Source of the DNA: Eublepharis macularius
Lineage: Eukaryota; Chordata; Lepidosauria; Squamata; Eublepharidae
Assembly (NCBI RefSeq): GCF_028583425.1
Contig: NC_072790.1
Location: 8,414,552-8,478,551 of the forward strand
Direction: 5' to 3'
Length of the DNA: 64,000 nt
Part shown: positions 24,117 to 61,200 of the stretch, piece after piece
Layout: each line of letters begins with the position of its first letter
Position numbering within the stretch: position 1 is the stretch's first letter
Position numbers and translations under genes: made by a program
Notes under the pieces: model-generated
Databases searched by the model: none
What the model saw: the letters and a program-made list of their open reading frames with translations, nothing else
Told to the model about the DNA's origin: nothing

Positions 24117-27100
24117 CTGCAGGATGCAACATTAGACGGGAATAGCAAAATGTATTCATTTGACAACAGGGCTGTAGTTATTCAAAAGAAGATGACCTTG
24201 AAGACACCTCCTAAAAATGTTACACTTGGTAAAAATGATAGCAATATAGTGTAATAATAATAGCTATGAATAAACGGGGGGGGGGGGGTTCGAGTGTTGT
24301 TGGAAGTCAACAAAGAAAAGGGGGAGGGGGTGGGGTATATATCTATGTAGAAGGGTTAATTTAGATAAGTTTAATGTATTAATCAATTATTGTATATTGC
24401 CTCATCCAATAAAAATTATTTTTTAAAAAAATGTTACACTAACATACAAAATTTATTGGATGTAGCTGTAACTTCCATGCAAATATAAGATGACGCCCCA
24501 CCCCCCTTTTAATGGCATACCTGGAAAAATGTCGTCTTGCCTTTAGTGTTGCTAACTTCAGGTCGAGACAGGCCTGGAGATTTGGTGGGGGGGGTGCTGG
24601 GGGTGTGTGTGACTTCAGTGGTATATAAAGTCATAGAATGCATCCCCCAAAGTAGCCATTTTCTAGAGGGGAACTGATCTCTGTCCCCTAGAGATAGTTG
24701 TAGTTCTGGAAGATCTCCAGCCACAACCTGAGGTTGGCAACTGTATTTTCATTTGAGAAAATATAGTAAAGTAATTGGAACATAATTCTACCTTTTTTTA
24801 AAAAAGGGGTCTCGAAATTAGATGCGCTGATAAGAGGCCCACCGTGGACTTGATTCTCGAAAGCTTATGCTACAGTAAAGTTGGTTCGTCTTAGAGGTGC
24901 TACTGGACTCTTTTCTATTTTGCTACTACAGACTAACACGGCTAACTCCTCTGGATCTGTGAAGATGTGTCCAGAGACCCAACTTTGCTATTATATCAGG
25001 GCGACTCCCCACCCCCGCCCAAATATCAGCTCCCAAAGTCAAGAAACAGCCGAGCAACTCAGGACCGCTCTCAAAAGGCCCCCTTGTGGCCCACAGCTTG
25101 GGCTGTCAGCTGACTTGGAGGAAAATGTCCTGAACCTTTAATGGGCTCTTAATGTGTGGGATGGAGCAGTTGAAGATTTTCATGGCATGGAAGCAAATGA
25201 CATCACGTGGCAAACAATGGGTGATTCCGCACATGTTGGATAATGCACTTCCAATCCTCTTTATAGATCATTTGGAACAGATTTTTTTGTGTGCAGAACA
25301 AAAAATCCACCTCAAACGACTGATAAAGTGCATTATCCAGCGTGTGCGGAATCAGCCAATATCCCTTTAAGCCTCTGTTAAAGGGACAGGACCCTTTTCT
25401 CTAGGCCCGTGGGCGACCCTATGCACAACTAGGCCTGCCGACTTGGGGTTGGAAAATGCCTGAAGATTTCAAGGGGGAGCCTGGGGAGGGACACCAGCAA
25501 GGCATCATGCCACGAGCTGGCGCTTCCCCCAAGGGAACTGACCTCTGTCGTCTGGAGGTCAGTCGGAATTCCAGATCTCCAGGCCCCCCCTGGAGTTTGG
25601 CAACCTTGTGCTTCTGATGTAGCTGCTGGATCGCAGTCTTATGAGACAAAGATGGATGGAGCACATTTTAAGCTGCTGCTCTTCCATTTTGTAACAGCTT
25701 TTGAGATGTTATTTTGGAGACATCGGAAACAAGCCATGAAATTCCTAAAGAGGGTTTTTAACGGCAGGCATCAGTTTGGAAGCTGGAGCCTCCTCCTCAC
25801 TGAAGGGGTCTGCCAACCTGTGCCTGCATCATCACACTGTTTCGGGCTCCCCGTGGCTGCTCTCCTCTACGAAGAAATCCCCGTCCACACAGAAGCTTTG
25901 GCACCCTAGGGCCCCTCCCCTTTCCCCCCTATATGCAAGCTTCCGATGCGACCGGATCGGTTTTTAGAGCATTCCGTCCCGCGCATCCCCGCTTGCAACC
26001 TGAAGTGTTGCTGCCCTGGCAAAGTTGATCTCCTCAGTGCAAAGCAGCCTGGAGTTATGCATGGGGGAAACTGCTGCTCTCAGTACCACAGACGTTATCT
26101 GCAAACACCTCTGCTTCCTAAGGAGGAAGGAACTAAGAAGGCAGATGCTAAGAATTTGGTGCGTAGCCCAGCTCGGGGGGGGGGGGGGACAGCTACTAGC
26201 CACAGGCGGCAGCCTGGCCAAAAAGCACACAGTGGGCCCCTTGTGCCCAGAAGAGGGTCGCTTTCAGCACATGCCAGGCCAGAGCTAAGCAAAATCTGAC
26301 ACGAGGCTTATTCAACGCTTTCAGGGAAGCAAACGCATCACTCAGTTCGCTTAGCAGCCCTCTTCCTTTGAAAACCAGCCCATCGGCTTCACCACTGCTA
26401 TGGTTACAGGCCAAGAGGCTTTGGCAAAACACCAGCCAGGCCTGCATCCAGTTCAAAAGATGGTAGGACACGACCGATCACCTCTTACCTTTGTGGGAAT
26501 AGTCTTGTTCGCTTCCCGATAGACGTGTTGTTCCGTAACCAAAGTCCTGGGGAAATAACCAACGGTGCCCATCTGGTCCTCATATTGCTCATTGTAAACC
26601 TTCCAGGTTGCAGCAAACAAAAGCCAGAATTAAGCACGGCCCCCATTCTCCAGAGTGCAACTAAGGCTGGGCGTCTTTTTGGAGAGCAAGGCTTGCCACT
26701 GCTCCTTGTTCCCAATGCAAGCTTCTTTGGGACAATGGAAAAGGGGTCAGAGAAATTATCCTTTTTCCTTTGCTAAAATGCCTTGTGAGTGGGGATGTTT
26801 GTTTAGAAGGGGGAACACTGAAGGTGCAAAGAAATATCTTCCTTTTTGAGAAATGGTCAGCGTCAACACTTTATTTCAGCTGCTACTCAACAGCTGCACG
26901 TACCTCAAATCAGTAGTAACATTGCTAGAAAAATTTTGTTCTAGTCACTTCAATAAAGGTTAACTAACAAAACAAAGTTATAGCTTCCATAATTGCTTAC
27001 CTAAATGTATACATGTATTCCGTGTTTGCTGTCTTTTTGCCTCCTGCCTCGCTGCTGCCTAATGGCTTTGTGCAATACACATTTCGGTGTTTTCAAAAGG

Positions 27101-37573: not shown

Positions 37574-37733
37574 TCACTTCTTGGCGTAAGTAATTTTCAT
37601 GGCATGGGAGGGGGTGATTTTGAAGCCCTGGAGAGCATCTCGCGCAGCTCCTGCCTGGCCTTCATTTTCAAACTCCACAAACGCAATGTCGTGTCTGCCA
37701 GGGACCAGTCGCACTTCTTTGAAACCAGGGAAC
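37574..37733 (-). CDS. SNRPB2: SNRPB2 exon 7, coding part (end of RRM2 and stop)
   Basis: The acceptor TCAAG lies before 37733. The exon completes Gln173, encodes residues 174-225 and ends in TGA at 37576-37574. It contains the RNP1-like HDIAFVEF and the family C-terminus MKITYAKK. Confidence 0.96.
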
Positions 37734-40700
37734 CTTGAGAGGGAGACAGGGAGGGAGGGAGGAAGAATTGCTTATTTACAGCATTTATTTCCTGCCCAAT
37801 CAGGGCAACCACGGCGGCTTTAGACAAGATCAGGTTCTTTATTGAGTTACGTGGCTGCTCTCGTTCTCTTAACAAAGGAAAAATAAAGTTGAATGCTGCA
37901 GACATTCTCTTGCCCAAATTGCTACACACGCGAAGGCCCCTAATCAGCAAAGGCATCCCCTTGCCAGCAAGGCACAAACACGTGTCTATAGTGGGGTGCT
38001 ATTCTGGGATCTTTAACCCGCGTGTTCCGAGGTCCAGACTCAGCACAGAACTCAGAATAACTAGGGGGAACAAGCACTCTTGAAATGAAAAGGGTTTTCA
38101 TTGAGATAACATAAGCTAAATTAAACAACTGTTACGAGAAAAGAGATTGCAAAACAGCAAGCCAAAAAGAATATTCCCTAACAGCTACGTGTCTATAAGG
38201 GAAAACAGAATGGGGCGGGGGGGGGGGGGGGTGATCGCATTTGACCCGTCCTGCAGAGTGTGGAAATCCTGTCTAGTCCTCGTGTGGAGAACAGAGGAGT
38301 GGGACGTAGAGACAGAGACCCACAAGCGTCTCCAAGCAGCCTGTGCCACTCGGGGGCAGTGGCTGGAAAAACTGCTGCAAAGTACTGCGCGTTTGGGGGG
38401 CTATATGTGTAGTGCAGGTGTTCTTGATCTGGAATGTGTCGGTCACTAATCCTGAAATGTGGTTATCCTGCCTTGGACCAGTATTGCTGTCTACCGCAGT
38501 GGCCTTCGATCTTTCCAGACTGAGGGCCTGCATGAAACCTGCTGAGCGGCAAGTAGGTCAGGAAGATATATGTGACATCAGTTACGGGACAGGGAGAGGG
38601 AGACAGAGGGCTATGACCCCCACCAGGGTCAATGCCAGAGCCGTGTCAGGGATACAAACGGAGCCCCAGAAGCTGAAGAACGAGCCAAGGGTCAGGGCCA
38701 TGGAGGAACCTTTGGACAAACGAGAGCCCTCCCCGTGCCATCCTGCTTGCATGCAAGAGGTGCCAGAAGGTGTGCTGAACCCTCCCTTTCCACATCTGCA
38801 CGCTGGCAGGACGTGCTGCCCCAAAGCAGCAAAACCGGGGAGCTCTGCAGGGGCAGGCAACCCAACTCAAGTGTCCAAGGCTCATGGGCTGAAGACTCCC
38901 ACCGATCCACGGCATCTCCTCTCTTGTAAAGCCATTTCGAGTGCATGAAGCTACGGCCGACTCCGTTTTCATGCTAGGGCTTTTAAAAGCTGTCCCAAAG
39001 ACTTGAGTCAGAGTATGAACACAAACGCCCCAAATGGAATCGGAAGGAAACGGAGGAGGAGGAGGATTCCTGAACCCGACACGGTCAGCTTCCCAGGCTT
39101 AATTTTTCTTTTTTAAAAAAGGAGTGACATATGCCCAGCGACCACACTCAGCCACGCCTGAGGCCTGCCTCCAACCTGAGTGGCTCCTTCACTGGTGGAA
39201 AAGCCACTTGAGAGGAAAGAGGGCGCAAAGCCTGGCTGAGCCAAGCGGGAGAACGTAGGGCCGACATCCTGGCGCTCCCGACTCCCTAAGCGCCAAGTCC
39301 GGACCAAGAGACAGAAGACGGGCAGTTTTAACGCCTCATTATACACATTAATACCACCAAGAGAAAGTCAATTAACCGCAGTGCCTGGCACCGGAATTCA
39401 TCCTCCTTGAACAGAACAAAGGCAGCCAGCTCGGAGCATTGTATCTCACAACAACACCCCATTTTTCCTCTCTGAATGTTTAGGAATGCGAGTATGGAAA
39501 GAGGCGTCTCGGAGACCTCCACCGCCCCCTCGTCGGCCTGCACCGAAGCGGCAGAGGCCTCCATTCATCCCCAGTGCAGACAGCAGGGGGTCACCCGGGC
39601 TCACCTCCCAACCGAGGGCACAAAAGCACCACAAAACCGAGAGCGTGGGAAGCCGCTGCCAGGGACCTAAGGAATCCAGGCACTCTGCTATCTCACCACC
39701 GGGTCTCCTCAGGACCAGAGGGTTACGAAAGAGTGAAGCACAACAAAGGAGGGGAAAGGGCACCGAGTTCCAGGCACACTCACTGATTAAAGAGCATCGA
39801 CAACATCATTTCATTTGTCTCCTCCGGCAAGTTGTTCAGGAAAAGGATGTAGTTGGGCGGATTATCGGGCACCTACAATAAAAACACACATTTGCTTTCA
39901 TAAACTGTAATCATTTTTTTGTTGGCACTCCTGGTTATTCTACAAGTGTTGTTATATTTGATTAAAAAAACGGACTGGGAGTGGGCTAAGAACGGCACGA
40001 TCCCGTACAGGGTTACTCCTGAAAAGACTGAAGAAACTGCACGGGGAGCAATCATAAACAGGTCTACTTCACAGTAAGTGCCATTTTGTTCAATGAGGCT
40101 TACTCCCATGAAAGTGTTCTTAGGATCACAGCCTGAGGCTACTGCAGATCTTCTAGAAGACAGCCAGCATAGTGCAGCGGCCGAGGGTCAGACCAGGACC
40201 TGGGCAACCCCCGTTCAAACCCCAGCTCTCTCCCAGAAGCTTGGTGGGTGACCTGGAGCGAGTCACACACTCTCAGCCTAACCTACCTCACAGGGCTGTT
40301 GCTGGAAGGATAAGATGGAGGAAGGGGCAATACTGCAAACTGCTTTGGGTCCTCATTGGAGAGAAAAGTGGGGTATCAGTGAAATAAATAAAATAAACAC
40401 TAGGTTTTCCAGTTCAGAGCAGCTCTCAAGGATGCCTTGGATCCAGCTGACGGTGACTTTCTTGCCTCACCTCCTGCTGCAGACCAAACAGTCCCTGAAA
40501 GCCTTCTGGGTCACAGCAGGATCGGTGGAAGCAAGGAAGCCATGCTCCGGGGCAGAAACCCTCCCGCCCACAGAAGCACTCCGCTGGATCCAAGCCAGTC
40601 ATTCACTCCGTGTCGTCAGAGAGCTGCATGCGAGGGGCCCGGCTGCAGCGTTGTGAGCTGAGCAGCAGCTACAAGGAATGGAAATATTCTTAGCAATTAT

Positions 40701-43700
40701 TCAGCCTGCCCATTTTCATGATACAAGAACAAACACTGAGGCACGGCTGGGACGGTCAGATTTCATTGCATACTTCGGACCCAATTCATGTTTCCTTTTA
40801 AAAATGAGAAGAAAATAATACCACATTTGTTCAGAGGGATTATAACTGATCGATTAGTTTACTATCATCAGAAGCAGGTCTCAGAAGCCGTTCTGCTTCA
40901 GACAAAAATGGCTATATACAAAAAGTACGTTATTCAGGATGGGCAAATGTGAAAACTAGTTGAGTTTGTTTGAGGGAGATAAAGAGGGAGAAAAGATCAC
41001 CTGCTGATTCTGCGCAGAGCTGGCTTGGGCGTTCGCTGAATTCTGGTTTGCTCCCTGTTAAGAAAGAATGAGAAGATCGAATCTACTTTTATTCCAGAGT
41101 CCAGACCTACAGTCAGAGAACGTTCTGTTAAAAAAAAAACCCTGAGTTCTTAAGCCAGGCGGCTTGCAGTTCTTTGAAATGTTTGCCAATAGGAAACACC
41201 CGGTCTAAGCACGCGGCAGCCCCCTCCCACTGGCCCAGTTTCCCACGGCCTCCGCAAGCACCAGGGATATGGAGAAAAGCTATTTTTATAGTGCAATCCT
41301 AAACCGAGTTACTCCAGCCTAAGCCCACTGATTTCAACGGACTCAGACTGAAGCAACTCTGTTTAAGAGTGCACTGTAGGCGTCCTTGTCTTTCCAGCAA
41401 CCTCCGAGGATATTTTTCTGCTTACTCCTTGGGTTCTCCTCCGCAAAGATCCCCAACATTTGATAAGACAATAAGCAGTCTCATGACATCCCTATAAAAC
41501 TAACACGTTTCTTGTGGCCTACGCCATCATGAACTGGAGCCGTCTTCACCCAAAAAAGGGAGAGAGGTGACAATTTTCATACACATTTAATGAGAAAGGC
41601 CGGCTTTTAATCCCCTAGCGCGTAAGTCCTACACTCTCCACTGCAGCACAGGATGCTTTAGGCAAAGAAGAGTTAATATTTTGGAAGGATCCGGTTAGTT
41701 GAATAAAAGCAACAAAATGTTTTCTGATTCAGAAAAGCAAGTCCGTAGAACTCCGCAGAGTGAAATAAAATACACAGGCCTGCCATTTCTTAAATGCATC
41801 TCTGTGGACGACAGCTCCCATCGTGCCCAACTAGGCCAGATTTAAGGGCTCCTCTTGTCTTGCTTCGGCAACAAACGTCCCCAGGCAAATTATATGTCCT
41901 CAGTACAAAGGAGTCAGTTTTGGAGCTGAGAAGGCTTAGCACAGCTCACAGAACACGCACAATTCTTCTGTATACACAGCCCAGCACAGTTATCCCACCA
42001 ATTATTAATAATTTTAGGCAAACACACACGTGAGCGGTTTTATTCTCTGACCAATGATATTTACAAGTTGTTCAGGACAGTGAAAAACTAGATTGCCAAA
42101 GACCCTTACCTGATTTGGCTTTTTGTTTGCATTCGCAGACTGTTCCAGCAATTTCGATTTCTTTTTTTCCTTTCTCTTCTCCTTATCAGCAAATGTACCA
42201 CGCATTTTAGAAATGACATCGGAGTCTGTTTTTGCATACTGAATACGCTGTTGAAATGAGAAGATTGATACGTTTTGCTATGCCAAGCAATCTGCGTTAA
42301 GCTTCATCAAGGCTGCCACTCTCGAGCCAGATGTTCAGAACACAGGATGCAGGTGGGAACGGATCCAAGGTTATGCAATATTTGGGTAACAACTGAATCA
42401 CTCGGTTGTGTACTGACACTCAAAACGCAGGATTTGTGTGTCAATTCAGTACATTTTTAAAATCCCACTTCCTTTCCAAGGGGATCAGGATAGCTATGTG
42501 GTTCTTCTCTCTGTTATCCTCACAACCACCCTGAGAGACAAATCAGGGGCTGAGACAGGATGGCTGGCCCAGAATCACCCAGTAAGCTCCACAGCAGAGA
42601 AGCCATTCTATCAGGGTCTCCCAGAACCGGGTGTGCATCCCACCACAGAATGAGACCTCCCTGCTTCTCCCTCCTGCTGCAGCGCAGGGAGCTCCCCAAC
42701 CAACCACCCCATTTTGTTCCTGGGAGTTAGAAGACGCTCACGTATAGTGTCAGGGGCAAAGTAGGAGGGCAGAAATTTGGTGGAGGTAAATTGTTTCAGC
42801 GGTTTTGGTTGTATTTGTTCTAATTTGGTGCCTGCATTTATTCTTTTTTTAATTCATAAATTTGTGCATTTTGATCTGTAGACTTTTAATATTGTTTATT
42901 GGACTGTTTCTAATTTGAGTCCTTGCAACCTGATGATTTCATTGATCCTGAGGAGTTAGCCGTGTTAGTCTGTAGTAGCAAAATCAAAAAGAGTCCAGTA
43001 GCACCTTTAAGACTAACCAATTTTATTATAGCATAAGCTTTCGAGAATCAAGTTCTCTTCATCAGATGCCTGATCAAAACTGGGCAGATGTATTGCCACA
43101 GTCCTACAGGCCTGTGTACAATGTCGGAAACTCAAGGGTCCCCATCAACAACAGAAGATGGCTGACCTGCCACCGGAACGACTCAGTACCGAGCCCCCTT
43201 TCACCAATGTTGGACTTGACGTGTTTGGACCCTGGAATGTGGTGACGCGCAAAACCAGGGGAGGACAGGCCAACAGCAAACGATGGGCAGTGCTTTTCAC
43301 ATGTCTGAGTATCCGAGCCGTGCATATTGAAGTGATCGAGTCCATGGATACCTCCAGCTTCATAAATGCCCTCAGAAGATTCCTTGCCATACGGGGACCT
43401 GTCAAGCTATTGAGGTCTGACCGTGGAACGAACTTTGTTGGTGCCTGCAAGGAGCTGGGAATCAATGGAAGCACAGATCTTGATCCAACCCTCAGCAGCT
43501 ACCTGAGTGATCAGAATTGTAAATGGATCTTCAATCCTCCCCATGCCTCTCACATGGGAGGAGTGTGGGAACGCATGATTGGCATTGCGCGCAGAATATT
43601 AGACTCTATGCTAGCAGGAAAACCTTCTCTCACTCATGAGACCTTAACCACCCTCCTGGCAGAGGTGTCTGCTATCATCAATGCCAGACCTTTAGTTCCA

Positions 43701-46700
43701 GTATCCTCTGATCCTGAGAACCCTACCATCTTAACACCAGCCACCTTGCTGACACAGAAGACAGGCAACTGGCCTGCACCTCAGGGAGACTGCATCTCTA
43801 AAGATATGTTCAAGCAGCAATGGAGGCAAGTTCAACTCCTCGCTAACACCTTTTGGAAGCGATGGAAGCAAGAGTACCTCCCCACTCTACAATGCCGACG
43901 CAAGTGGGAGAAGTCCGAGCCCAACTTACGAGAAGGCGACGTCGTCCTCCTGAAAGACAAGGACGCCCCCAGAAACTCATGGCCCATGGGACTCATAGAC
44001 CGAGTTCTGCCCAGTGCGGATGGGTTAGTCCGCAAGGTTGACATCCGTGTCGCTAGACATGACGGCCCGAAGATTTTCACCAGACCAGTCACCGAGGTGG
44101 TCCTGCTTGTACGGAAGACTGATCTTGAAGACTGAATCTCAAGCTTTGCATGTCACTGTTTTGCTTATCTTAGCCTGTAGAGTAGCATGCCTTATATACT
44201 CAGTTACGTATGTAGTGCATGTAGTATATGCTTAGTATTCTACTAGCCTTGCATGTTGGGGTGGAATCCACAGGATCCCAGGCGGGGAGTGTGCTGTTAG
44301 CCACAGCTTAGAGACTATGAACGGTTATCACATTACCACAGGTAACAGATTCTCTTTACAGAGGCGTGATCTGGGGGAGCCCAGTGACGCCTGGTGTGGG
44401 CTTTCGGGGACCACAGTTCTCTTTGTCAGATGCAACAGGCAGGGAGAGCTGTGGTTACCGAAGGCTTATACTACATAGGAATTGGACACCTTCACTGCTA
44501 CAAACTGACTGCACACCAAAAGGAGATGTTTACATTTCCAAGCAAAGGAATGTTTTGATTGCCTCTATGCTAATTGCATTCTGCCTTCTTGTGATTTATG
44601 ACCCCTCCCTTTTCTCTCTCTTTCCCCCTCCTCTTCTGTATCTGCCCAGTTTTGATCAGGCATCTGATGAAGAGAACTTGATTCTCGAAAGCTTATGCTA
44701 TAATAAAATTGGTTAGTCTTAAAGGTGCTACTGGACTCTTTTTGATGATTTCATTGTTAGCCGTCCAGAGTCTGAAAAGATAAGGCACAACAGGAATGTC
44801 TTAAACAAACAAACAAGGGCCCTTAGGTCTGGCCGCACAGCATGCTGCAGGCTTACAGAACTGAACCACAGCGGAACGGCCCACTCCCACAGAACGAAGT
44901 CACATCCACCCCCCCTAAGCACTGATATCAACGTGGAACATCAGTTGAACTTTAGAAATATCCAAAATTGGACTTTTATGCAAAGATAAACATTTTCTAC
45001 ATGTGTGTAGAATGTACAGCTTTAATCTTAAAAAGCTGATCTGGGGAGTTCTGGATAGCTTGGGATCATGTCTCAGAAATTATATCTGGCATACTTCACA
45101 ACAGGTTACTCAAAGCACAGCTAATTCAGTTCACGGATAATACAAGTAATACTTTCACCCAAACAGTCACATTAAGTGGAGTGTTTCACAACAAAAGCAC
45201 CTTTGTATTCACTTTGAAATTTTACTCAATACACAAGCTTCCTGACAAAGGGGAAATTAAGTTGTGCCTGTGGAATACTGCGAGGAACTTGCTAGGAAGC
45301 ACAGCCTTCTCTCGTGTGCAGCACAAACCGAAAGGAGTCATGTTAGTTAAAGACTACCAGATTTACTGGAGCGCAAGTTTCAGGAGCCAGAGCACACTTC
45401 CACAGCCGCATGTGGTGAAACCTCAACCAGCAGAATATACACACAGCAGAGAAAACTAAACCAAAAAAATGTGAAGAGCAGGTGAAAAGGCCATGGAAAG
45501 TAAAAGATGAAGCCTGTGCCATTTCTATGCAAAGAAGTTTACGAGGAAGGCGTAACAGCCATTCTCATATGCTGGGAAGTGTTTTAAAACATGCAAGAAA
45601 AACAGCTTCCTAGGGAGCCAGTTGCTGAAGGCAGAGAAGAATAACACAATCTCTGTTGTGTTATTGCACTCACCCCATCTTTAGCAACCAAGACTTACCA
45701 TTGGCTTGCTGTAAAATGGGAATCCCTGCAGCTGCCTCAGCGCGTTGGTGGAGGACCCCAGCTCCTTAAAGATCACAAAAGCCTGTCCTCTCATCTTCAT
45801 GGTCTTGAGAGCCACAATGTCCACGACACGGCCGAACTGAGAAAACAGCGCGTACAAAGACCTCTTCAGTTCTGCCAAGGAAAAAGCCACAAGAATTATT
45901 GTATATGCCTTTATTTATTTAAGGCACTTTTAAACCCCACCTTTCTCCTTGAAAGGACTCCAAGTGAATAATGACATTGTTTTATGAATACATCTTGGAA
46001 CAAGCCAGATGACTATTAAAATCTGCAAATCCAACCATTAAAATGACCCAGCCAATCAAACTACACCATGCAATGGCTATTAGCTAAACAGAGCAGAGAG
46101 ACAAACAGGAAAGGAATATTGCTCTGCTTGTAGATGTATCTAATTTATTCTTTTCATTTATACTCCACCTGTCCCCTCCAACAGGGCCCCCAAGGGGCTT
46201 GTACCAGTTTCCTACCCTCCATTTTATCATCAGCACAGCCCTGTGGGGTAGGGCTAGGGTGAGGGTGTGTGACTGGCCCCAGGTCAGCCAGTGAGCTCCC
46301 ATGACCGAGTGAGGATTCAAAGCAGAGCCTCCGAGATCCCGGCCCAGCCCTCTAACCAACCATACCACTCTAGCTCTTATTACATTTCTTAGATCCATCA
46401 GTTTTCTTGTGTTAAAAACAGCCTGTAAGAACTGTATAGACCCCCATTCTGATCCTTACACCTTCCCGCTTCTAAAAGACCATCCTGCCTTACAGGTCAG
46501 CCATACACAGTTGGGGCAAGGTGCGGCACAATCAAACTTCTTGCCAGGAAAGTAGAAAAATCCAACAACTTGCCAGTCCTATGGTGTCTCCTCCCTCAAA
46601 TGGCTCCAAACTTTTAATGGTTTACAGCCGCTGCATTCTGATACATGTTACTCCACCGTCTCACTCACTGACTATACTATCCTCCCACCACTGCCTCTGG

Positions 46701-47194
46701 AACATCGTGGCAGGATTTGAGAAAAAAACAGCTGTTTACTATCCTACAAGCAAAGCCACATCGTGACAGATTCGCCAGTGAAGCTTAAAACAATAGCAGT
46801 TCGTTTGTACACATTTCCCACAGAAATATTACATCACTGCAGCAGCTTCAGAAATGGATTAGCAGAACAGCAGCCAACCTTGCTAATTCTGCCCCCTGCT
46901 GGGGCTGCTCCCCACTAGACATCAGCGTGCTAAAGGTCAGCTGTGAACGGCTGGAATATTCTCCTCATTTGTTTGCCTCAGAAAAAGCTTGTTTGAGAAA
47001 ATCTCCCAGCGGAGGGTCCTCTTTCAAGATGAGGAAGGAAAGGTGCGAACAGTAACGCTGGTCTAACACAAGTGCTTCCTACTGCTCCAAGCCTGCAGCC
47101 TAAGGTGGAAGTGATATATGATTTTCATACCTTCCTTCTTAATTTTGTCATTAACGTTGTTGATGTAAAGCGTGTGGTTTGGTCGTATATCCAT
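37574..47194 (-). CDS. SNRPB2: SNRPB2, U2 small nuclear ribonucleoprotein B'' (complete, 6 coding exons)
   Basis: U2B'' binds stem-loop IV of U2 snRNA together with U2A' and acts in the nucleus as part of the U2 snRNP of the spliceosome. Six coding exons (47194-47131, 45871-45699, 42247-42110, 41054-41001, 39872-39784, 37733-37574) join in frame at GT/AG sites to give 225 residues, the length I recall for human SNRPB2. RRM1 has RNP2 LYINNV (residues 9-14) and RNP1 RGQAFVIF (49-56). A basic Lys/Glu-rich linker follows (about 95-125), then RRM2 with RNP2 ILFLNNL (152-158) and RNP1-like HDIAFVEF (187-194), ending YAKK. The start MDIRPNHT and the RRM1 sequence match U2B'' rather than its paralogue U1A (SNRPA), which starts MAVPETRPNHT. 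No frame break is seen. Ser76 stands where I recall Gly in human. Intron 3 (42248-45698) hosts a large composite repeat insertion. Confidence 0.97.
39784..39872 (-). CDS. SNRPB2: SNRPB2 exon 6 (start of RRM2)
   Basis: The exon encodes [20 protein letters not shown] and onward (residues 144-172) plus two bases of Gln173. It carries RNP2 of the second RRM. The acceptor is TTGTAG and the donor GTGAGTG. Confidence 0.95.
40163..40400 (+). mobile_element. MIR-like tRNA SINE (SNRPB2 intron 5)
   Basis: CATAGTGCAGCGG head, B-box GTTCAAACCCC, GGTGACCTGGAGCGAGTCAC core, CCTCACAGGGCTGTTG, ending GGGGTATCAGTGAAATAAAT. It lies antisense to SNRPB2. Confidence 0.78.
41001..41054 (-). CDS. SNRPB2: SNRPB2 exon 5 (54-base linker exon)
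   Basis: This small phase-0 exon encodes 18 residues (126-143), rich in Asn, Gln, Ala and Ser. It matches the position and character of the mammalian inter-RRM linker. The acceptor is TTAACAG and the donor GTGATC. Confidence 0.93.
42110..42247 (-). CDS. SNRPB2: SNRPB2 exon 4 (RRM1 end and basic linker)
   Basis: The exon has 138 bases in phase 0 and codes residues 80-125, from [10 protein letters not shown] through the Lys/Glu-rich stretch to KKPNQ. The acceptor is CAACAG and the donor GTAAGG. The charged linker is where nuclear localisation signals lie in this family. Confidence 0.96.
42945..43089 (-). mobile_element. Penelope-like tail repeat, left arm (antisense)
   Basis: Complement of the tail ending GCTAACTCCTCAGGAT. 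It includes the full 3' terminus (42945-42982), which the right arm lacks. It carries the hammerhead core in reverse. Confidence 0.8.
43090..44290 (+). mobile_element. BEL/Pao LTR-retrotransposon fossil: integrase and pol C-terminus only
   Basis: This is the 3' part of a BEL/Pao pol. It opens with the end of the integrase zinc finger ([11 protein letters not shown]), then the integrase core ([49 protein letters not shown]), then the BEL-type C-terminal domain ([25 protein letters not shown]). The reading frame covers 43158-44135. Gag, protease, reverse transcriptase and RNase H are not in the window, so it is a fragment. A purine-rich GGCGGGGAG near 44281 may mark the start of a 3' LTR. It is read on the plus strand, antisense to SNRPB2. 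Confidence 0.88.
44640..44742 (+). mobile_element. Penelope-like tail repeat, right arm (sense)
   Basis: GATCAGGCATCTGATGAAGA, TTCTCGAAAGCTTATGC, TTGGTTAGTCTTAAAGGTGC and TACTGGACTCTTTT. It is identical to the left arm and is cut before the GACTAACACGGC terminus found in other copies. Confidence 0.8.
44646..44712 (+). ncRNA. Hammerhead-like motif in the tail repeat
   Basis: Core CTGATGA (44664-44670), one spare A, stem II GAGAA/TTCTC (44672-44676, 44682-44686), GAAA (44687-44690), tiny stem III GC/GC round TTAT (44691-44698), and cleavage triplet CTA (44698-44700). CCAGTTTT (44646-44653) pairs with AAAATTGG (44705-44712) as an outer stem I with one G-T pair. The pairs beside the cleavage site are poor. 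The same motif lies in reverse in the left arm. Confidence 0.5.
45699..45871 (-). CDS. SNRPB2: SNRPB2 exon 3 (most of RRM1)
   Basis: The acceptor TTGGCAG precedes 45871 and the donor GTAAGT follows 45699. The 173 bases supply the last two bases of Glu22 and residues 23-79, including RNP1 RGQAFVIF and the end of RRM1 (FYSKPM). Confidence 0.96.
46138..46380 (-). mobile_element. tRNA-type SINE (SNRPB2 intron 2, sense to the gene)
   Basis: CATTTATACTCCACCTGTCC, CCCCAAGGGGCTTGTACC, CAGCACAGCCCTGTGGGG and AGGATTCAAAGCAGAGCCTC appear in the same order as the copy at 29968. Confidence 0.7.
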
Positions 47195-52368: not shown

Positions 52369-53573
52369 AAACGATCTACCATCAATATACTCTACAGGTG
52401 TAAGTTTTCTGAGGGATGTACTAAAACGAATGACAGGATTGCCCATTGGAAATAATGGGAGAGGCTCGAATGCCCATAGGAAATAATGGGAAACTGGAAT
52501 GCCCGTTGACTTGCATGGGCTCCATTGAAACACATTAGAGCAAAAAAAGAGGTGCAAAGAAAACGTGGAATGGATTTTGAAGGAAAGTGTCTGGGCTCAG
52601 ATAACCTGTTCTGGGACTGGATTGACAGGTCCCATGCTGGAATGACGGCCCCTGGGTGTGCCAGAAGGGCTCTGGGACCGGAATGACAGGGCCCTGACTA
52701 GAATGACGGCCCCTGGGTGTGCCAGAAGGGCTCTGGGACCGGAATGACAGGGCCCTGACTAGAATGACGGGCCCTGGGTGTGACAGAAGGGCTCAGGGAC
52801 TGGAATGACAGGCCCCTGACTGGAATGACGGCCCCTGGGTGTGCCAGAAGGGCTCTGGGACTGGAATGACAGGCCCCATGCTGGAATGACAACCCCTGAG
52901 TGTGCCAGAAGGGCTCTGGGACTGGAACGACAGGCACTGTGCTGGAATGACGGCCTCTAGGTGTGACAGAAGGACTCAGAGACTGGAATGACAGGCCCCT
53001 GACTGGAATAACGGCCCCTAGATGTGCCAGAAGGGCTCGGGGACTGGAATGACAGGCCCCTGACTGGAATAACGGCCCCTGGGTGTGCCAGAAGGGCTCT
53101 GGGACTGGAATGACAGGCCCCAGACTGGAATAACAGCCCCTGGGTGTGCCAGAAGGGCTCTGGGACTGGAATGACAGGCCCCTGACTGGAATAACGGCCC
53201 CTAGATGTGCCAGAAGGGCTCGGGGACTGGAATGACAGGCCCCTGACTGGAATAACGGCCCCTGGGTGTGCCAGAAGGGCTCTGGGACTGGAATGACAGG
53301 CCCCAGACTGGAATAACAGCCCCTGGGTGTGCCAGAAGGGCTCTGGGACTGGAATGACAGGCCCCATGCTGGAATGACGACCCCTGGGTGTGCCAGAAGG
53401 GCTCTGGGACTGGAACGACAGGCTCTGTGCTGGAATGACGGCCCCTAAGTGTGACAGAAGGGCTCAGGGACTGGAATGACAGGCCCCTGACAGGAATGAC
53501 GGGCCCTGGGTGTGCGAGAAGGGCTCGGGGACTGGAATGACAGGCACCTGACTGGAATGATGGCCCCTAGGTG

Positions 53574-56500
53574 TGACAGAAGGACTCAGAGACTGGAATG
53601 ACAGGCCCCTGACTGGAATGAAGGGCCCTGGGTGTGACAGAAGGGCTCAGGGACTGGAATGACAGGCCCCTGACTGGAATAACGGACCCTAGATGTGCCA
53701 GAAGGGCTCGGGGACTGGAATGACAGGCCCCTGACTGGAATAACGGCCCCTGGGTGTGCCAGAAGGGCTCTGGGACTGGAATGACAGGCCCCAGACTGGA
53801 ATAACAGCCCCTGGGTGTGCCAGAAGGGCTCTGGGACTGGAATGACAGGCCCCATGCTGGAATGACGACCCCTGGGTGTGCCAGAAGGGCTCTGGGACTG
53901 GAACGACAGGCTCTGTGCTGGAATGACGGCCCCTAAGTGTGACAGAAGGGCTCAGGGACTGGAATGACAGGCCCCTGACAGGAATGACGGGCCCTGGGTG
54001 TGCCAGAAGGGCTCGGGGACTGGAATGACAGGCACCTGACTGGAATGATGGCCCCTGGGTGGGCCAGAAGGGCTCTGGGACTGGAATGACAGGCCCCTGA
54101 CTGGAATGACGACCCCTGGGTGTGACAGATGGGCTCTGGGACTGGAATGACAGGCTCTATGCTGGAATGAAGGACCCTGGGTGTGACAGAAGGGCTCTGG
54201 GACTGGAATGACAGGCCCCTGACTGGAATGACGGGCCCTGGGTGTGACAGAAGGGCTCGGGGACTGGAATGACAGGCCCCATGCTGGAATGACGGACTCT
54301 GGGGGTGCCGGAAGGGCTTGGGGACTGGATTGACAGGCCCCATGCTGGAATGACGGCCCCTGGGTGTGACAGAAGGGCTCGGGGACTGGAATGACAGGCC
54401 CCATGCTGGAATAACGGCCTCTGGGGGTGCCAGAAGGGCTCTGGGACTGGAATGACAGGCCCCTGACTGGAATGATGGTCCCTGGGTGTGCCAGAAGCAC
54501 TCTGGGACTGGAATGACAGGCCCCAGACTGGAATAATGGCCACTGGGTGTGCCAGAAGGGCTCTGGGACTGGAATGACAGGCCCCAGACTGGAATGACGG
54601 CCCCTGGGTGTGCCAGAAGGGCTTGGGGACTGGATTGACAGGCCCCATGCTGGAATGACGGCCCCTGGCTGTGCCAGAAGGGCTCTGGGACTGGAATGAC
54701 AGGCTCTGTGCTGGAATGACGGCCCCTGGGTGTGCCAGAAGGGCTCTGGGACTGGAATGACAGGCCCCAGACTGGAATGACGACACCTGGGTGTGCCAGA
54801 AGGGCTCGGGGACTGGATTGACAGGCCCCATGCTGGAATGACGGCCCCTGGGTGTGCCAGAAGGGCTCTGGGACGGGAATGACAGGCCCCTGACTGGAAT
54901 GAAGGGCCCTGGGTGTGCCAGAAGGGCTCTGGGACTGGAATGACAGGCCCCTGACTGGAATAAAGGCCCCTGGGTGTGTGAGAAGGGCGCTGAGACTGGA
55001 ATGACAGGCCCCTGACTGGAATGACGGGTCCTGGGTGTGACAGAAGGGCGCTGAGATTGGAATGACAGGCACCTGACTGGAATGATGGCCCCTAGGTGTG
55101 ACAGAAGGACTCAGAGACTGGAATGACAGGCCCCTGACTGGAATGAAGGGCCCTGGGTGTGACAGAAGGGCTCAGGGACTGGAATGACAGGCCCCTGACT
55201 GGAATAACGGACCCTAGATGTGCCAGAAGGTCTCGGGGACTGGAATGACAGGCCCCTGACTGGAATAACGGCCCCTGGGTGTGCCAGAAGGGCTCTGGGA
55301 CTGGAATGACAGGCCCCAGACTGGAATAACAGCCCCTGGGTGTGCCAGAAGGGCTCTGGGACTGGAATGACAGGCCCCATGCTGGAATGACGACCCCTGG
55401 GTGTGCCAGAAGGGCTCTGGGACTGGAACGACAGGCTCTGTGCTGGAATGACGGCCCCTAAGTGTGACAGAAGGGCTCAGGGACTGGAATGACAGGCCCC
55501 TGACAGGAATGACGGGCCCTGGGTGTGCCAGAAGGGCTCGGGGACTGGAATGACAGGCACCTGACTGGAATGATGGCCCCTGGGTGGGCCAGAAGGGCTC
55601 GGGGACTGGAATGACAGGCCCCTAACTGGAATGACGACCCCTGGGTGTGACAGATGGGCTCTGGGACTGGAATGACAGGCTCTATGCTGGAATGAAGGAC
55701 CCTGGGTGTGACAGAAGGGCTCTGGGACTGGAATGACAGGCCCCTGACTGGAATGACGGGCCCTGGGTGTGCCAGAAGGGCTCGGGGACTGGAATGACAG
55801 GCCCCATGCTGGAATGACGGACTCTGGGGGTGCCGGAAGGGCTCTGGGACTGGAATGACAGGCCCCTGACTGGAATGACGGGCCCTGGGTGTGACAGAAG
55901 GGCTCGGGGACTGGAATGACAGGCCCCATGCTGGAATGACGGCCTCTGGGGGTGCCAGAAGGGCTCTGGGACTGGAATGACAGGCCCCTGACTGGAATGA
56001 TGGTCCCTGGGTGTGCCAGAAGCACTCTGGGACTGGAATGAAAGGCCCCAGACTGGAATAATGGCCACTGGGTGTGCCAGAAGGGCTCTGGGACTGGAAT
56101 GACAGGCCCCAGACTGGAATGACGGCCCCTGGGTGTGCCAGAAGGGCTTGGGGACTGGATTGACAGGCCCCATGCTGGAATGACGGCCCCTGGCTGTGCC
56201 AGAAGGGCTCTGGGACTGGAATGACAGGCTCTGTGCTGGAATGACGGCCCCTGGGTGTGCCAGAAGGGCTCTGGGACTGGAATGACAGGCCCCAGACTGG
56301 AATGACGACACCTGGGTGTGCCAGAAGGGCTTGGGGACTGGATTGACAGGCCCCATGCTGGAATGACGGCCCCTGGGTGTGCCAGAAGGGCTCTGGGACG
56401 GGAATGACAGGCCCCTGACTGGAATGAAGGGCCCTGGGTGTGCCAGAAGGGCTCTGGGACTGGAATGACAGGCCCCTGACTGGAATAAAGGCCCCTGGGT

Positions 56501-56624
56501 GTGTGAGAAGGGCGCTGAGACTGGAATGACAGGCCCCTGACTGGAATGACGGGTCCTGGGTGTGACAGAAGGGCGCTGAGATTGGAATGACAGGCTCCTG
56601 ACTGGAATGATGGCCCCTGGGTGT
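53574..56624. repeat. Higher-order repeat of 25 units (1525 bp), two copies
   Basis: The pattern of variant units starting near 53574 recurs 1525 bp later, exactly 25 x 61. Matching marks include the AAGTGTGACAG variant at about 53935 and 55460, GACAGATGGGCTC at about 54124 and 55649, and GGTGCCGGAAGG at about 54305 and 55830. The copies are not identical, so the duplication is recent but not brand new. Confidence 0.75.
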
Positions 56625-58260
56625 GAGAGAAGGGCTCGGGGCCTGGATTGACAGACCCCATGCTGGAATGACGGCCCCTGGGTGTTCCAGAAGAGTTCGG
56701 GGACTGGAATGACAGGCCCCAGACTGGAATAACAGCCCCTGGGTGTGCCAGAAGGGCTCTGGGACTGGAATGACAGGCCCCATGCTGGAATGACGACCCC
56801 TGGGTGTGCCAGAAGGGCTCTGGGACTGGAACGACAGGCTCTGTGCTGGAATGACGGCCCCTAAGTGTGACAGAAGGGCTCAGGGACTGGAATGACAGGC
56901 CCCTGACAGGAATGACGGGCCCTGGGTGTGCCAGAAGGGCTCGGGGACTGGAATGACAGGCACCTGACTGGAATGATGGCCCCTGGGTGGGCCAGAAGGG
57001 CTCGGGGACTGGAATGACAGGCCCCTGACTGGAATGACGACCCCTGGGTGTGACAGATGGGCTCTGGGACTGGAATGACAGGCTCTATGCTGGAATGAAG
57101 GACCCTGGGTGTGACAGAAGGGCTCTGGGACTGGAATGACAGGCCCCTGACTGGAATGACGGGCCCTGGGTGTGCCAGAAGGGCTCGGGGACTGGAATGA
57201 CAGGCCCCATGCTGGAATGACGGACTCTGGGGGTGCCGGAAGGGCTCTGGGACTGGAATGACAGGCCCCTGACTGGAATGACGGGCCCTGGGTGTGACAG
57301 AAGGGCTCGGGGACTGGAATGACAGGCCCCATGCTGGAATGACGGCCTCTGGGGGTGCCAGAAGGGCTCTGGGACTGGAATGACAGGCCCCTGACTGGAA
57401 TGATGGTCCCTGGGTGTGCCAGAAGCACTCTGGGACTGGAATGAAAGGCCCCAGACTGGAATAATGGCCACTGGGTGTGCCAGAAGGGCTCTGAGACTGG
57501 AATGACAGGCCCCAGACTGGAATGACGGCCCCTGGGTGTGCCAGAAGGGCTTGGGGACTGGATTGACAGGCCCCATGCTGGAATGACGGCCCCTGGCTGT
57601 GCCAGAAGGGCTCTGGGACTGGAATGACAGGCTCTGTGCTGGAATGACGGCCCCTGGGTGTGCCAGAAGGGCTCTGGGACTGGAATGACAGGCCCCAGAC
57701 TGGAATGACGACACCTGGGTGTGCCAGAAGGGCTTGGGGACTGGATTGACAGGCCCCATGCTGGAATGACGGCCCCTGGGTGTGCCAGAAGGGCTCTGGG
57801 ACGGGAATGACAGGCCCCTGACTGGAATGAAGGGCCCTGGGTGTGCCAGAAGGGCTCTGGGACTGGAATGACAGGCCCCTGACTGGAATAAAGGCCCCTG
57901 GGTGTGTGAGAAGGGCGCTGAGACTGGAATGACAGGCCCCTGACTGGAATGACGGGTCCTGGGTGTGACAGAAGGGCGCTGAGATTGGAATGACAGGCTC
58001 CTGACTGGAATGATGGCCCCTGGGTGTGAGAGAAGGGCTCGGGGCCTGGATTGACAGACCCCATGCTGGAATGACGGCCCCTGGGTGTTCCAGAAGAGTT
58101 CGGGGACTGGAATGACAGGCCCCTGACTGGAATGAGGGGCCCTGGGTGTGCCAGAAGGTCTCGGGGACTGGAATGACAGGCCCCTGACTGGAATGAAGGA
58201 CCCTGGGTGTGACAGAAGGGCTCTGGGACTGGAATGACAGGCCCCTGACTGAAATGACGG
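55458..58260. repeat. Higher-order repeat of 23 units (1403 bp)
   Basis: From about 55458 the same series of variant units reappears 1403 bp downstream (23 x 61), starting near 56861 with the same AAGTGTGACAG, GACAGATGGG and GGTGCCGGAAGG marks. A two-unit difference from the 25-unit period suggests an internal loss. Confidence 0.7.
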
Positions 58261-61200
58261 GCCCTGGGTGTGACAGAAGGGCTCGGGGACTGGAATGACA
58301 GGCCCCATGCTGGAATGACGGACTCTGGGGGTGCCGGAAGGGCTCTGGGACTGGAATGACAGGCCCCTGACTGGAATGACGGGCCCTGGGTGTGACAGAA
58401 GGGCTCGGGGACTGGAATGACAGGCCCCTGACTGGAATGACGGGTCCTGGGTGTGACAGAAGGGCGCTGAGATTGGAATGACAGGCTCCTGACTGGAATG
58501 ATGGCCCCTGGGTGTGAGAGAAGGGTTCGGGGCCTGGATTGACAGACCCCATGCTGGAATGACGGCCCCTGGGTGTTCCAGAAGGGCTCGGGGACTGGAA
58601 TGACAGGCCCCTGACTGGAATGAGGGGCCCTGGGTGTGCCAGAAGGTCTCGGGGACTGGAATGACAGGCCCCTGACTGGAATGACGGGCCCTCGGTGTGC
58701 CAGAAGGGCTCGGGGACTGGAATGATGGCGCCTGGGTGTGCCAGAAGGGATCGTGGACTGGATTGACAGGCCCCCTTGCTGTAATGACGACACCTGGGTG
58801 TGACAGAAGGGCTCAGGGACTGGAATGACAGGCCCCTGACTGGAATAACGGCCCCTAGATGTGCCAGAAGGGCTCGGGACTGGAATGACAGGCCCCTGAC
58901 TGGAATAACGGCCCCTGGGTGTGCCAGAAGGGCTTTTGGGACTGGAATGACAGGCCCCCAGACTGGAATAACAGCCCCTGGTGTGCAAGAAGGGCTCTGG
59001 GACTGGAATGACAGGCCCCATGCTGGAATGTCGACCCCTGGGTGTGCCAGAAGGGCTCTGGGACTGGAACGACAGGCTCTGTGCTGGAATGACGGCCCCT
59101 AAGTGTGACAGAAGGGCTCAGGGACTGGAATGACAGGCCCCTGACAGGAATGACGGGCCCTGGGTGTGCCAGAAGGGCTCGGGGACTGGAATGACAGGCA
59201 CCTGACTGGAATGATGGCCCCTGGGTGGGCCAGAAGGGCTCTGGGACTGGAATGACAGGCCCCTGACTGGAATAACGACCCCTGGGTGTGACAGATGGGC
59301 TCTGGGACTGGAATGACAGGCTCTATGCTGGAATGAAGGACCCCTGGTGTGACAGAAGGGCTCTGGGACTGGAATGACAGGCCCCTGACTGGAATGACGG
59401 GGCCCTGGGTGTGACAGAAGGGCTCGGGGACTGGATTGACAGACCCCATGCTGGAATGACGGCCCCTGGGTGTTCCAGAAGGGCTCTGGACTGGAACGAC
59501 AGGCTCTGTGCTGGAATGACGGCCCCTAAGTGTGACAGAAGGGCTCAGGGACTGGAATGACAGGCCCCTGACAGGAATGACGGGCCCTGGGTGTGCCAGA
59601 AGGGCTCGGGGACTGGAATGACAGGCACCTGACTGGAATGATGGCCCCTGGGTGGGCCAGAAGGGCTCTGGGACTGGAATGACAGGCCCCTGACTGGAAT
59701 AACGACCCCTGGGTGTGACAGATGGGCTCTGGGACTGGAATGACAGGCTCTATGCTGGAATGACGGCCTCTGGGGGTGCCAGAAGGGCTCTGGGACTGGA
59801 ATGACAGGCCCCTGACTGGAATGATGGTCCCCTAGGTGTGCCAGAAGGACTCTGGGACTGGAATGACAGGCCCAGACTGGAATAATGGCCACTGGGTGTG
59901 CCAGAAGGGCTCTGGGACTGGAATGACAGGCCCCAGACAGGAATGACGGCCCCTGGGTGTGCCAGAAGGGCTTGGGGACTGGATTGACAGGCCCCATGCT
60001 GGAATGACGGCCCATGGGTGTGCCAGAAGGGCTCTGGGACTGGAATGACAGGCCCCTGACTGGAATGACGGGCCCTGGGTGTGACAGAAGGGCTCGGGGA
60101 CTGGAATGACAGGCCCCATGCTGAATGACGGACTCTGGGGGTGCCGGAAGGGCTCTGGGACTGGAATGACAGGCCCCTGACTGGAATGACGGGCCCTGGG
60201 TGTGACAGAAGGGCTCGGGGACTGGAATGACAGGCCCCATGCTGGAATGACGGCCTCTGGGGGTGCCAGAAGGGCTCTGGGACTGGAATGACAGGCCCCT
60301 GACTGGAATGATGGTCCCTAGGTGTGCCAGAAGGACTCTGGGACTGGAATGACAGGCCCCAGACTGGAATAATGACCACTGGGTGTGCCAGAAGGGCTCT
60401 GGGACTGGAATGACAGGCCCCCAGACAGGAATGACGGCCCCTGGGTGTGCCAGAAGGGCTTGGGGACTGGATTGACAGGCCCCATGCTGGAATGGACGGC
60501 CCATGGGTGTGCCAGAAGGGCTCTGGGACTGGAATGACAGGCTCTGTGCTGGAATGACGGCCCCTGGGTGTGCCAGAAAGGGCTCTGGGACTGGAATGAC
60601 AGGCCCCAGACTGGAATGACGACACCTGGGTGTGCCAGAAGGGCTCGGGGACTGGATTGACAGGCCCATGCTGGAATGACGGCCCTGGGTGTGCCAGAAG
60701 GGCTCTGGGACTGGAATGACAGGCCCCTGACTGGAATGAAGGGCCCTGGGTGTGCCAGAAGGGCTCTGGGACTGGAATGACAGGCCCCTGACTGGAATAA
60801 AGGCCCCTGGGTGTGTGAGAAGGGCGCTGAGACTGGAATGACAGGCCCCTGACTGGAATGACGGGTCCTGGGTGTGACAGAAGGGCGCTGAGACTGGAAT
60901 GACAGGCTCCTGACTGGGAATGATGGCCCCTGGGTGGTGAGAGAAGGGCTCGGGGCCTGGATTGACAGACCCCATGCTGGAATGACGGCCCCTGGGTGTT
61001 CCAGAAGGGCTCGGGGACTGGAATGACAGGCCCCTGACTGGAATGAGGGGCCTGGGTGTGCCAGAAGGTCTCGGGGACTGGAATGACAGGCCCCTGACTG
61101 GAATGATGGGCCCTCGGTGTGCCAGAAGGGCTCGGGGACTGGAATGATGGCGCCTGGGTGTGCCAGAAGGGCTCGTGGACTGGATTGACAGGCCCCATGC

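Follow-up and report, generated by a model that had tools for sequence, protein, structure and literature searches.

A BEL/Pao segment at the central joint of an inverted Penelope-like insertion in an SNRPB2 intron of Eublepharis macularius

The genome of the gecko Eublepharis macularius carries, in an intron of the splicing-factor gene SNRPB2, a composite insert in which a piece of a BEL/Pao retrotransposon stands between two inverted copies of the 3' part of a Penelope-like element (PLE). It occupies part of the window C1:8414552-8478551, the whole stretch of 64,000 nt that was analysed and to which all positions below refer unless another locus is named; the genome searched comprised 2.24 Gb. 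Its location in SNRPB2, proposed in an initial annotation made from the sequence of the window alone, is borne out by the minus-strand exon matches that tblastn places on either side of it, at 45872-45699 and 42364-42110. The parts of the insert, in their order along the window, are listed below.

42931-42944: left copy of the target-site duplication, TGATGATTTCATTG, 14 bp
42945-43089, minus strand: left arm, an inverted PLE 3' end of 145 nt with full tail, 99.3% identical to the PLE arm of a sister copy (L051) and ending 0 nt from its 3' end
43039-43065, minus strand: hammerhead-like core, inverted copy, motif CTGATGA...GAAA only
43074-44132, plus strand: open frame of 353 amino acids through the BEL segment, its first codons within the PLE arm
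43086-43089: left joint overlap AGAT, 4 nt; BEL copies match from 43086 and the PLE arm reaches 43089
43090-44308, plus strand: BEL/Pao segment, 1,219 nt, with the 3' part of pol (integrase, DUF5641), untranslated sequence 3' of it and some 20 nt from the presumed start of the 3' long terminal repeat (LTR)
44309-44312: right joint overlap TAGA, 4 nt; BEL copies match to 44312 and PLE copies from 44309
44309-44746, plus strand: right arm, a PLE 3' part of 438 nt, its tail 38 nt short by comparison with sister copies
44664-44690, plus strand: hammerhead-like core, direct copy, motif CTGATGA...GAAA only
44743-44756: right copy of the target-site duplication, TGATGATTTCATTG, 14 bp, of which the first 4 nt (TGAT) could equally be PLE tail

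Architecture and origin of the parts

Two stretches of 107 nt, 42983-43089 and 44640-44746, are exact reverse complements, and the 14-bp repeat TGATGATTTCATTG bounds everything between its two copies; on both counts the initial annotation was right. It had also treated the 107-nt arms as whole units and set the junctions with the interior at about 43089 and 44640. The identity of the arms is real, but each belongs to a longer PLE stretch (42945-43089 on the left, 44309-44746 on the right), and only the left junction (43086-43089) lies where it had been put. The right one is at 44309-44312, and 44640 is merely the point at which the shorter left copy stops. Other PLE copies, where long enough, align to the window from 44309, and upstream of that point they carry the end of a frame that in L051 encodes reverse transcriptase (RT) and GIY-YIG endonuclease; the right arm opens with the last 11 codons of this frame (stop codon at 44343-44345) and continues into the 3' region. 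The outer ends of the left and right arms would correspond, respectively, to a distal and an internal start of reverse transcription. At both joints the BEL and PLE sequences overlap by 4 nt; a random-base model puts the chance of overlaps at least this long at the two joints together at about 2.4e-4.

The arms had further been described as hammerhead-bearing. The core motif is indeed present in both, but Rfam reports no hammerhead family at its gathering score, nor, for 42900-44800, at E values up to 5. Within the right arm, positions 44395-44470 form an imperfect hairpin whose first half resembles an inverted hammerhead segment; in Rfam it has only sub-threshold microRNA matches.

The interior is, as first supposed, a 3' part of BEL/Pao pol. 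The 353-residue frame matches DUF5641 in Pfam with E 6.5e-29, and the rve integrase core appears below the Pfam cut-off (21.4 versus 32.6 bits, E 3.1e-4). The 3' LTR probably begins near 44290, to judge from a purine run followed by TG. The insert as a whole is no BEL/Pao element: it has no LTR pair, at most some 20 nt of a single LTR and no element start, its ends are those of a PLE, and its 14-bp flank repeat is of the PLE type rather than the short integrase type. The genome has 29 matches to the R/U5 region of the BEL family, and in five copies a pair of these motifs is separated by 7409-7428 nt; the assignment of the matching copies to BEL/Pao is based on the domain order. With 12 close copies the segment shares 98.9-99.6% identity over 43086-44312. 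Compared with 15 copies that span its 1,219 nt, it has three private changes, with 5-9 differences from the 12 young copies and 41-52 from three older ones (of 18 BEL loci, L045, L047 and L048 do not span the segment and were dropped from this count). Such a sequence is not the fossil that it had been called.

Both junctions of the chimera recur at one other place. The left junction is spanned by two of the 41 matches listed (best 40 of 43 candidates) and the right one also by two of 41 (best 40 of 969 candidates); in each case these are the window locus and the same duplicate at C1:1.875 Mb. This duplicate belongs to a block of about 50.4 kb (9322-59756, including all the SNRPB2 exon matches) whose second copy, at C1:1.84-1.89 Mb, lies on the same contig at a distance of 6.58 Mb. 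The alignment of the two copies has 11 mismatches and 66 gap openings, and the repetition stems either from a recent segmental duplication or from the assembly. Since both junctions occur, among the matches listed, only at the locus and its duplicate, the chimera probably has a single origin, and most likely arose once, before the block was duplicated. On the same evidence we rejected a recurrent family of BEL-PLE cargo bounded by PLE tails.

At a separate locus (L048, C1:104.08 Mb; positions L048 2582-2682) a BEL copy runs to the equivalent of 44167 and is followed by roughly 100 nt from the tail of an older PLE and then by flank that is not BEL. It is a possible second BEL capture, which we do not count as such. 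The one 13-mer tried as its duplication has no second copy nearby, and none of the 29 R/U5 matches lies on its contig.

The SNRPB2 exon matches, obtained with the human protein sequence as query, are these.

37577-47194, minus strand: SNRPB2 exon matches (tblastn) at 47194-47123, 45872-45699, 42364-42110, 39872-39783 and 37807-37577

An older PLE 3' end with full tail, 93.6% identical to the young family over 109 nt, lies at 24848-24956. A tandem array with a unit of about 61 bp occupies the end of the window (52610-64000), and the alignment to the duplicated block stops inside it.

The Penelope-like family and its two tails

The PLE family is young and abundant in this genome. A 53-mer of its 3' region has 609 exact occurrences, compared with none for the reversed control, and all 43 matches listed for a 201-nt probe (44480-44680) are 100% identical, 41 of them over the full length and two in part (best 40 of 1,110 candidates). 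A genome search with the 107-nt arm alone returned no match, that search being one which skips very common words. In the one sister copy examined for coding capacity (L051), a single frame contains both RVT_1 (E 1.2e-11) and GIY-YIG (E 1e-4; 22.9 bits against a cut-off of 22.6). By this combination of RT and GIY-YIG in one frame the element is an endonuclease-bearing (EN+) PLE, of whose frame the window insert itself retains only the last 11 codons.

Paired copies in this family are predominantly inverted. Among the 100 sites listed of the 609 there are 27 neighbour pairs no more than 5 kb apart, of which 23 are head-to-head with tails outward, three are tandem and one is tail-to-tail. Counted in the 23 are the window locus together with its duplicate, and also a group of four pairs of near-equal spacing; with each of these sets counted once, 19 head-to-head pairs remain. 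The four, at C1 4.66, 5.01, 5.28 and 7.05 Mb, have spacings of 2966-2968 nt and, close as they are to the contig start, are perhaps further segmental duplicates. The tandem pairs are spaced 3123-3142 nt apart, which suggests that this is the length of the PLE unit. We compiled a set of 28 distinct inserts, leaving out the duplicate of the window (L032), the older diverged PLE pieces and one place among the probe matches listed (C1:41416683). This set comprises 22 head-to-head inserts whose tails point outward (19 that show both of their ends, plus L022, L066 and L070), two with a single arm and four whose form is undecided.

The 19 fully visible pairs, the window among them, obey a simple rule: one arm has an essentially complete tail, with 0-5 nt of the element end missing, and its partner lacks 30-45 nt (38 nt in the window). 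If the two ends were independent, the probability of finding one full and one short tail in 19 of 19 pairs would be at most 1.9e-6. The nine inserts left out of this comparison have one end or arm absent or out of view: in L022 and L066 one end lies outside the sequence examined, in L070 the tail-outward partner is 3.6 kb away, L012 and L019 are single-armed, and L016, L025, L065 and L068 are the undecided ones.

All 19 pairs are also flanked by a repeat of 12-14 bp, counting bases that could equally be tail, so that the 14-bp duplication reported for the window is of the family's usual length. As a control, flanks of different inserts share at most 8 bp in 306 comparisons, versus 12-14 bp at each of the 18 inserts compared (window included); the nineteenth (L010/L011, with a repeat of 13 bp) was measured apart. 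By a count made by eye over 18 inserts, a C precedes the duplication in 13 of them and a G follows it in 11, a symmetric bias that hints at one endonuclease cutting both strands.

The central joints of the family are much more modest than that of the window. In 19 other joints (those of L022 and L066 and of 17 among the 18 full pairs other than the window; L051 was omitted since the PLE reference was cut at its joint) the arms either overlap by 0-28 nt or are separated by fillers of 2-24 nt, and the window joint alone holds 1,219 nt of BEL. The suggestion that the tails regularly mobilise unrelated cargo thus finds no support: none of these 19 joints has more than 24 foreign nucleotides, and among the matches listed the BEL junctions are confined to the locus and its duplicate. 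Two of the fillers copy adjacent sequence, one over 10 nt exactly and one over 11 nt with a single mismatch, in a manner resembling microhomology end joining. In 15 of the 19 the arms end at clearly different positions of the element.

How the insert may have formed

We consider it very probable that the insert is the product of a single two-ended PLE insertion in whose joint the BEL segment was caught, whatever the source of that segment. The initial interpretation is borne out in part, namely as to a Penelope-like machinery and a chimeric product: the arms are PLE 3' ends and follow the tail rule and repeat length of the family, so that a PLE looks to be responsible, and the BEL lies between them with 4-nt overlaps. 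What the sequence itself shows is the architecture, the tail rule of the family, the microhomologies and, among the matches listed, the confinement of both junctions to this locus and its duplicate; the enzymatic steps that follow, their order and an RNA origin of the BEL part are inferred. The endonuclease of the EN+ PLE would cut the two target strands about 14 bp apart, and both of the resulting DNA ends would prime reverse transcription of PLE RNA, the complementary DNAs (cDNAs) growing inward. One end would start at the distal site, giving the left arm its full tail, while priming from the opposite end would begin 38 nt farther upstream, at the internal site, and give the right arm. The left cDNA would halt after 145 nt, and the right one would extend for 438 nt to 44309, where, at the 4-nt match TAGA, it would switch to a sense BEL RNA and copy it as far as 43086. 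Both cDNAs would then be joined by their ends at the second 4-nt match, AGAT, and filling in of the staggered cut would produce the 14-bp duplication. Two inward cDNAs joined end to end are favoured because 15 of the 19 other joints are asymmetric and all 19 full pairs use both start sites. The narrower claim, that the BEL entered when the right-hand cDNA switched onto sense BEL RNA, we consider the likeliest route and slightly more probable than not.

Several observations weigh against this account, in whole or in part. Single-armed inserts also occur, namely L012 and L019, which have repeats of 10 bp. No second insert with BEL cargo was found among the matches listed, and we are dealing with a single event. 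The divergence between the arms of one insert (0.32%, 16 inserts) is about that between inserts (0.39%), and because the two values are alike the arms do not reveal if the template was a single RNA or a pair of them. Among the 19 other joints, four (L001, L014, L020 and L026) are near-symmetric, a form that folding back of a single cDNA would fit too. The BEL piece begins and stops inside the BEL element, away from natural RNA or cDNA ends. Finally, for an Anolis PLE the start sites are reported to be equal on the top and bottom strands (PMC11167929), and on account of that equality the Anolis data do not themselves predict the rule of one full and one short tail.

Because its ends are internal to the element, the BEL piece may also have been a captured fragment of DNA, for example an incomplete BEL cDNA, ligated by microhomology-mediated end joining in the course of the same two-ended insertion. 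This variant has an appreciable probability, although it is not the one that we would choose. The 4-nt overlaps at both joints and the repair-type templated fillers in two sister inserts are what it would predict; the fillers in the 19 other joints, however, do not exceed 24 nt, and the BEL has the orientation expected if the right-hand cDNA had copied a sense RNA, an agreement to which chance alone would give even odds.

The head-to-head form itself has been attributed, in rotifer PLEs, to self-priming, or fold-back, on an antisense template (PMC3846280). For the gecko inserts we think this unlikely. It would suit the four near-symmetric joints and may account for that minority, but in the other 15 the arms stop at different positions of the element, and fold-back alone leaves the 30-45-nt difference between the tails of all 19 pairs unexplained. 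A little less likely again is a PLE RNA that was chimeric beforehand, produced by read-through from a BEL copy into a PLE nested in its LTR and then reverse transcribed whole. The BEL and the right arm do share a strand, and their joint falls about 20 nt inside the presumed 3' LTR; the 44309 junction, on the other hand, is spanned by no listed match other than the locus and its duplicate, and a nested insertion would not predict the 4-nt overlap at that joint. Stepwise nesting, in which independent PLE and BEL insertions followed by deletions yielded the arrangement by accident, could draw on the young copies of both elements in the genome, but with no BEL LTR pair in the insert, a flank repeat that encloses everything and two arms that follow the family's tail rule, it is highly improbable.

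On a wider reading, PLE insertion in this family would as a rule be two-ended and two-site, with one target end starting at the distal and the other at the internal site of the PLE RNA, and the meeting point of the cDNAs would be open to template switching, so that a PLE RT could copy BEL/Pao RNA into a chromosome. This generalization we offer tentatively, as something short of an even prospect. With hundreds of nearly identical young copies, 19 of 19 pairs that follow the tail rule and an intact flank repeat at each of these, the family allows the two-ended model to be tested directly on sequence data. The BEL piece in turn would mark the point at which the cDNAs met, and suggests that material of another class of retrotransposon can enter there.

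Comparison with known systems

How PLE insertions are completed, and why head-to-head copies are frequent, are matters on which two papers differ, one favouring fold-back on an antisense template (PMC3846280) and the other regarding whatever follows cDNA synthesis as still awaiting validation (PMC11167929). In the second, the Anolis protein (Poseidon_Ac / PAc) cleaves and extends both strands, and reverse transcription begins at either of two neighbouring internal sites, which delimit the genomic tail (PMC11167929). Like the gecko PLE, Poseidon_Ac / PAc has an RT and GIY-YIG protein, and its two start sites would have their counterpart in the two tail lengths of the gecko pairs; it also has a hammerhead sequence, where the gecko arms show a hammerhead-like core motif. 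In contrast to our data, its start sites were pooled rather than paired for each insertion, and the available portion of the paper describes no foreign segment at the joint (PMC11167929).

In the rotifer Adineta vaga, Pen2a_Av and Pen3a_Av are flanked by duplications of 8-10 bp and end on one side in an inverted pseudo-LTR (pLTR); one inverted pLTR may bear a 31-bp tail (PMC3846280). A host non-ribosomal peptide synthetase (NRPS) gene is framed there by Pen3a pLTRs, and a few unrelated sequences lie between solo pLTRs; the authors proposed template jumps for N-rich inserts and, to explain the head-to-head form, preferred a model of self-priming with antisense RNA as template (PMC3846280). The NRPS gene stands between two direct pLTRs and has kept its introns (PMC3846280), whereas the gecko cargo is a piece of another retrotransposon located at a head-to-head joint with 4-nt overlaps.

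The genomic BEL/Pao copies are the nearest relatives of the captured segment, 12 of them at 98.9-99.6% identity, and the insert differs from them in that it has neither an LTR pair nor an element start and is flanked by a 14-bp repeat of the PLE type. Chimeras of U6 and L1 reportedly arise by template switching of a long interspersed nuclear element (LINE). In LINE template-switch chimeras one reverse transcriptase unites unrelated RNAs in each insertion (PMC2104539, PMC13174262). These belong to another class of retrotransposon, and the gecko insert differs in the two cDNAs that would have grown from two target ends.

In the literature searched, in which subscription papers are thinly covered, no title or abstract opening reports a PLE insert with a piece of an LTR retrotransposon. 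Inverted PLE inserts and foreign sequence within PLE insertions were already known; what appears to be new here is an inverted PLE insertion whose foreign cargo comes from another class of retrotransposon and is placed at the central joint. The locus is a clue to how PLEs insert and how they acquire foreign sequence.

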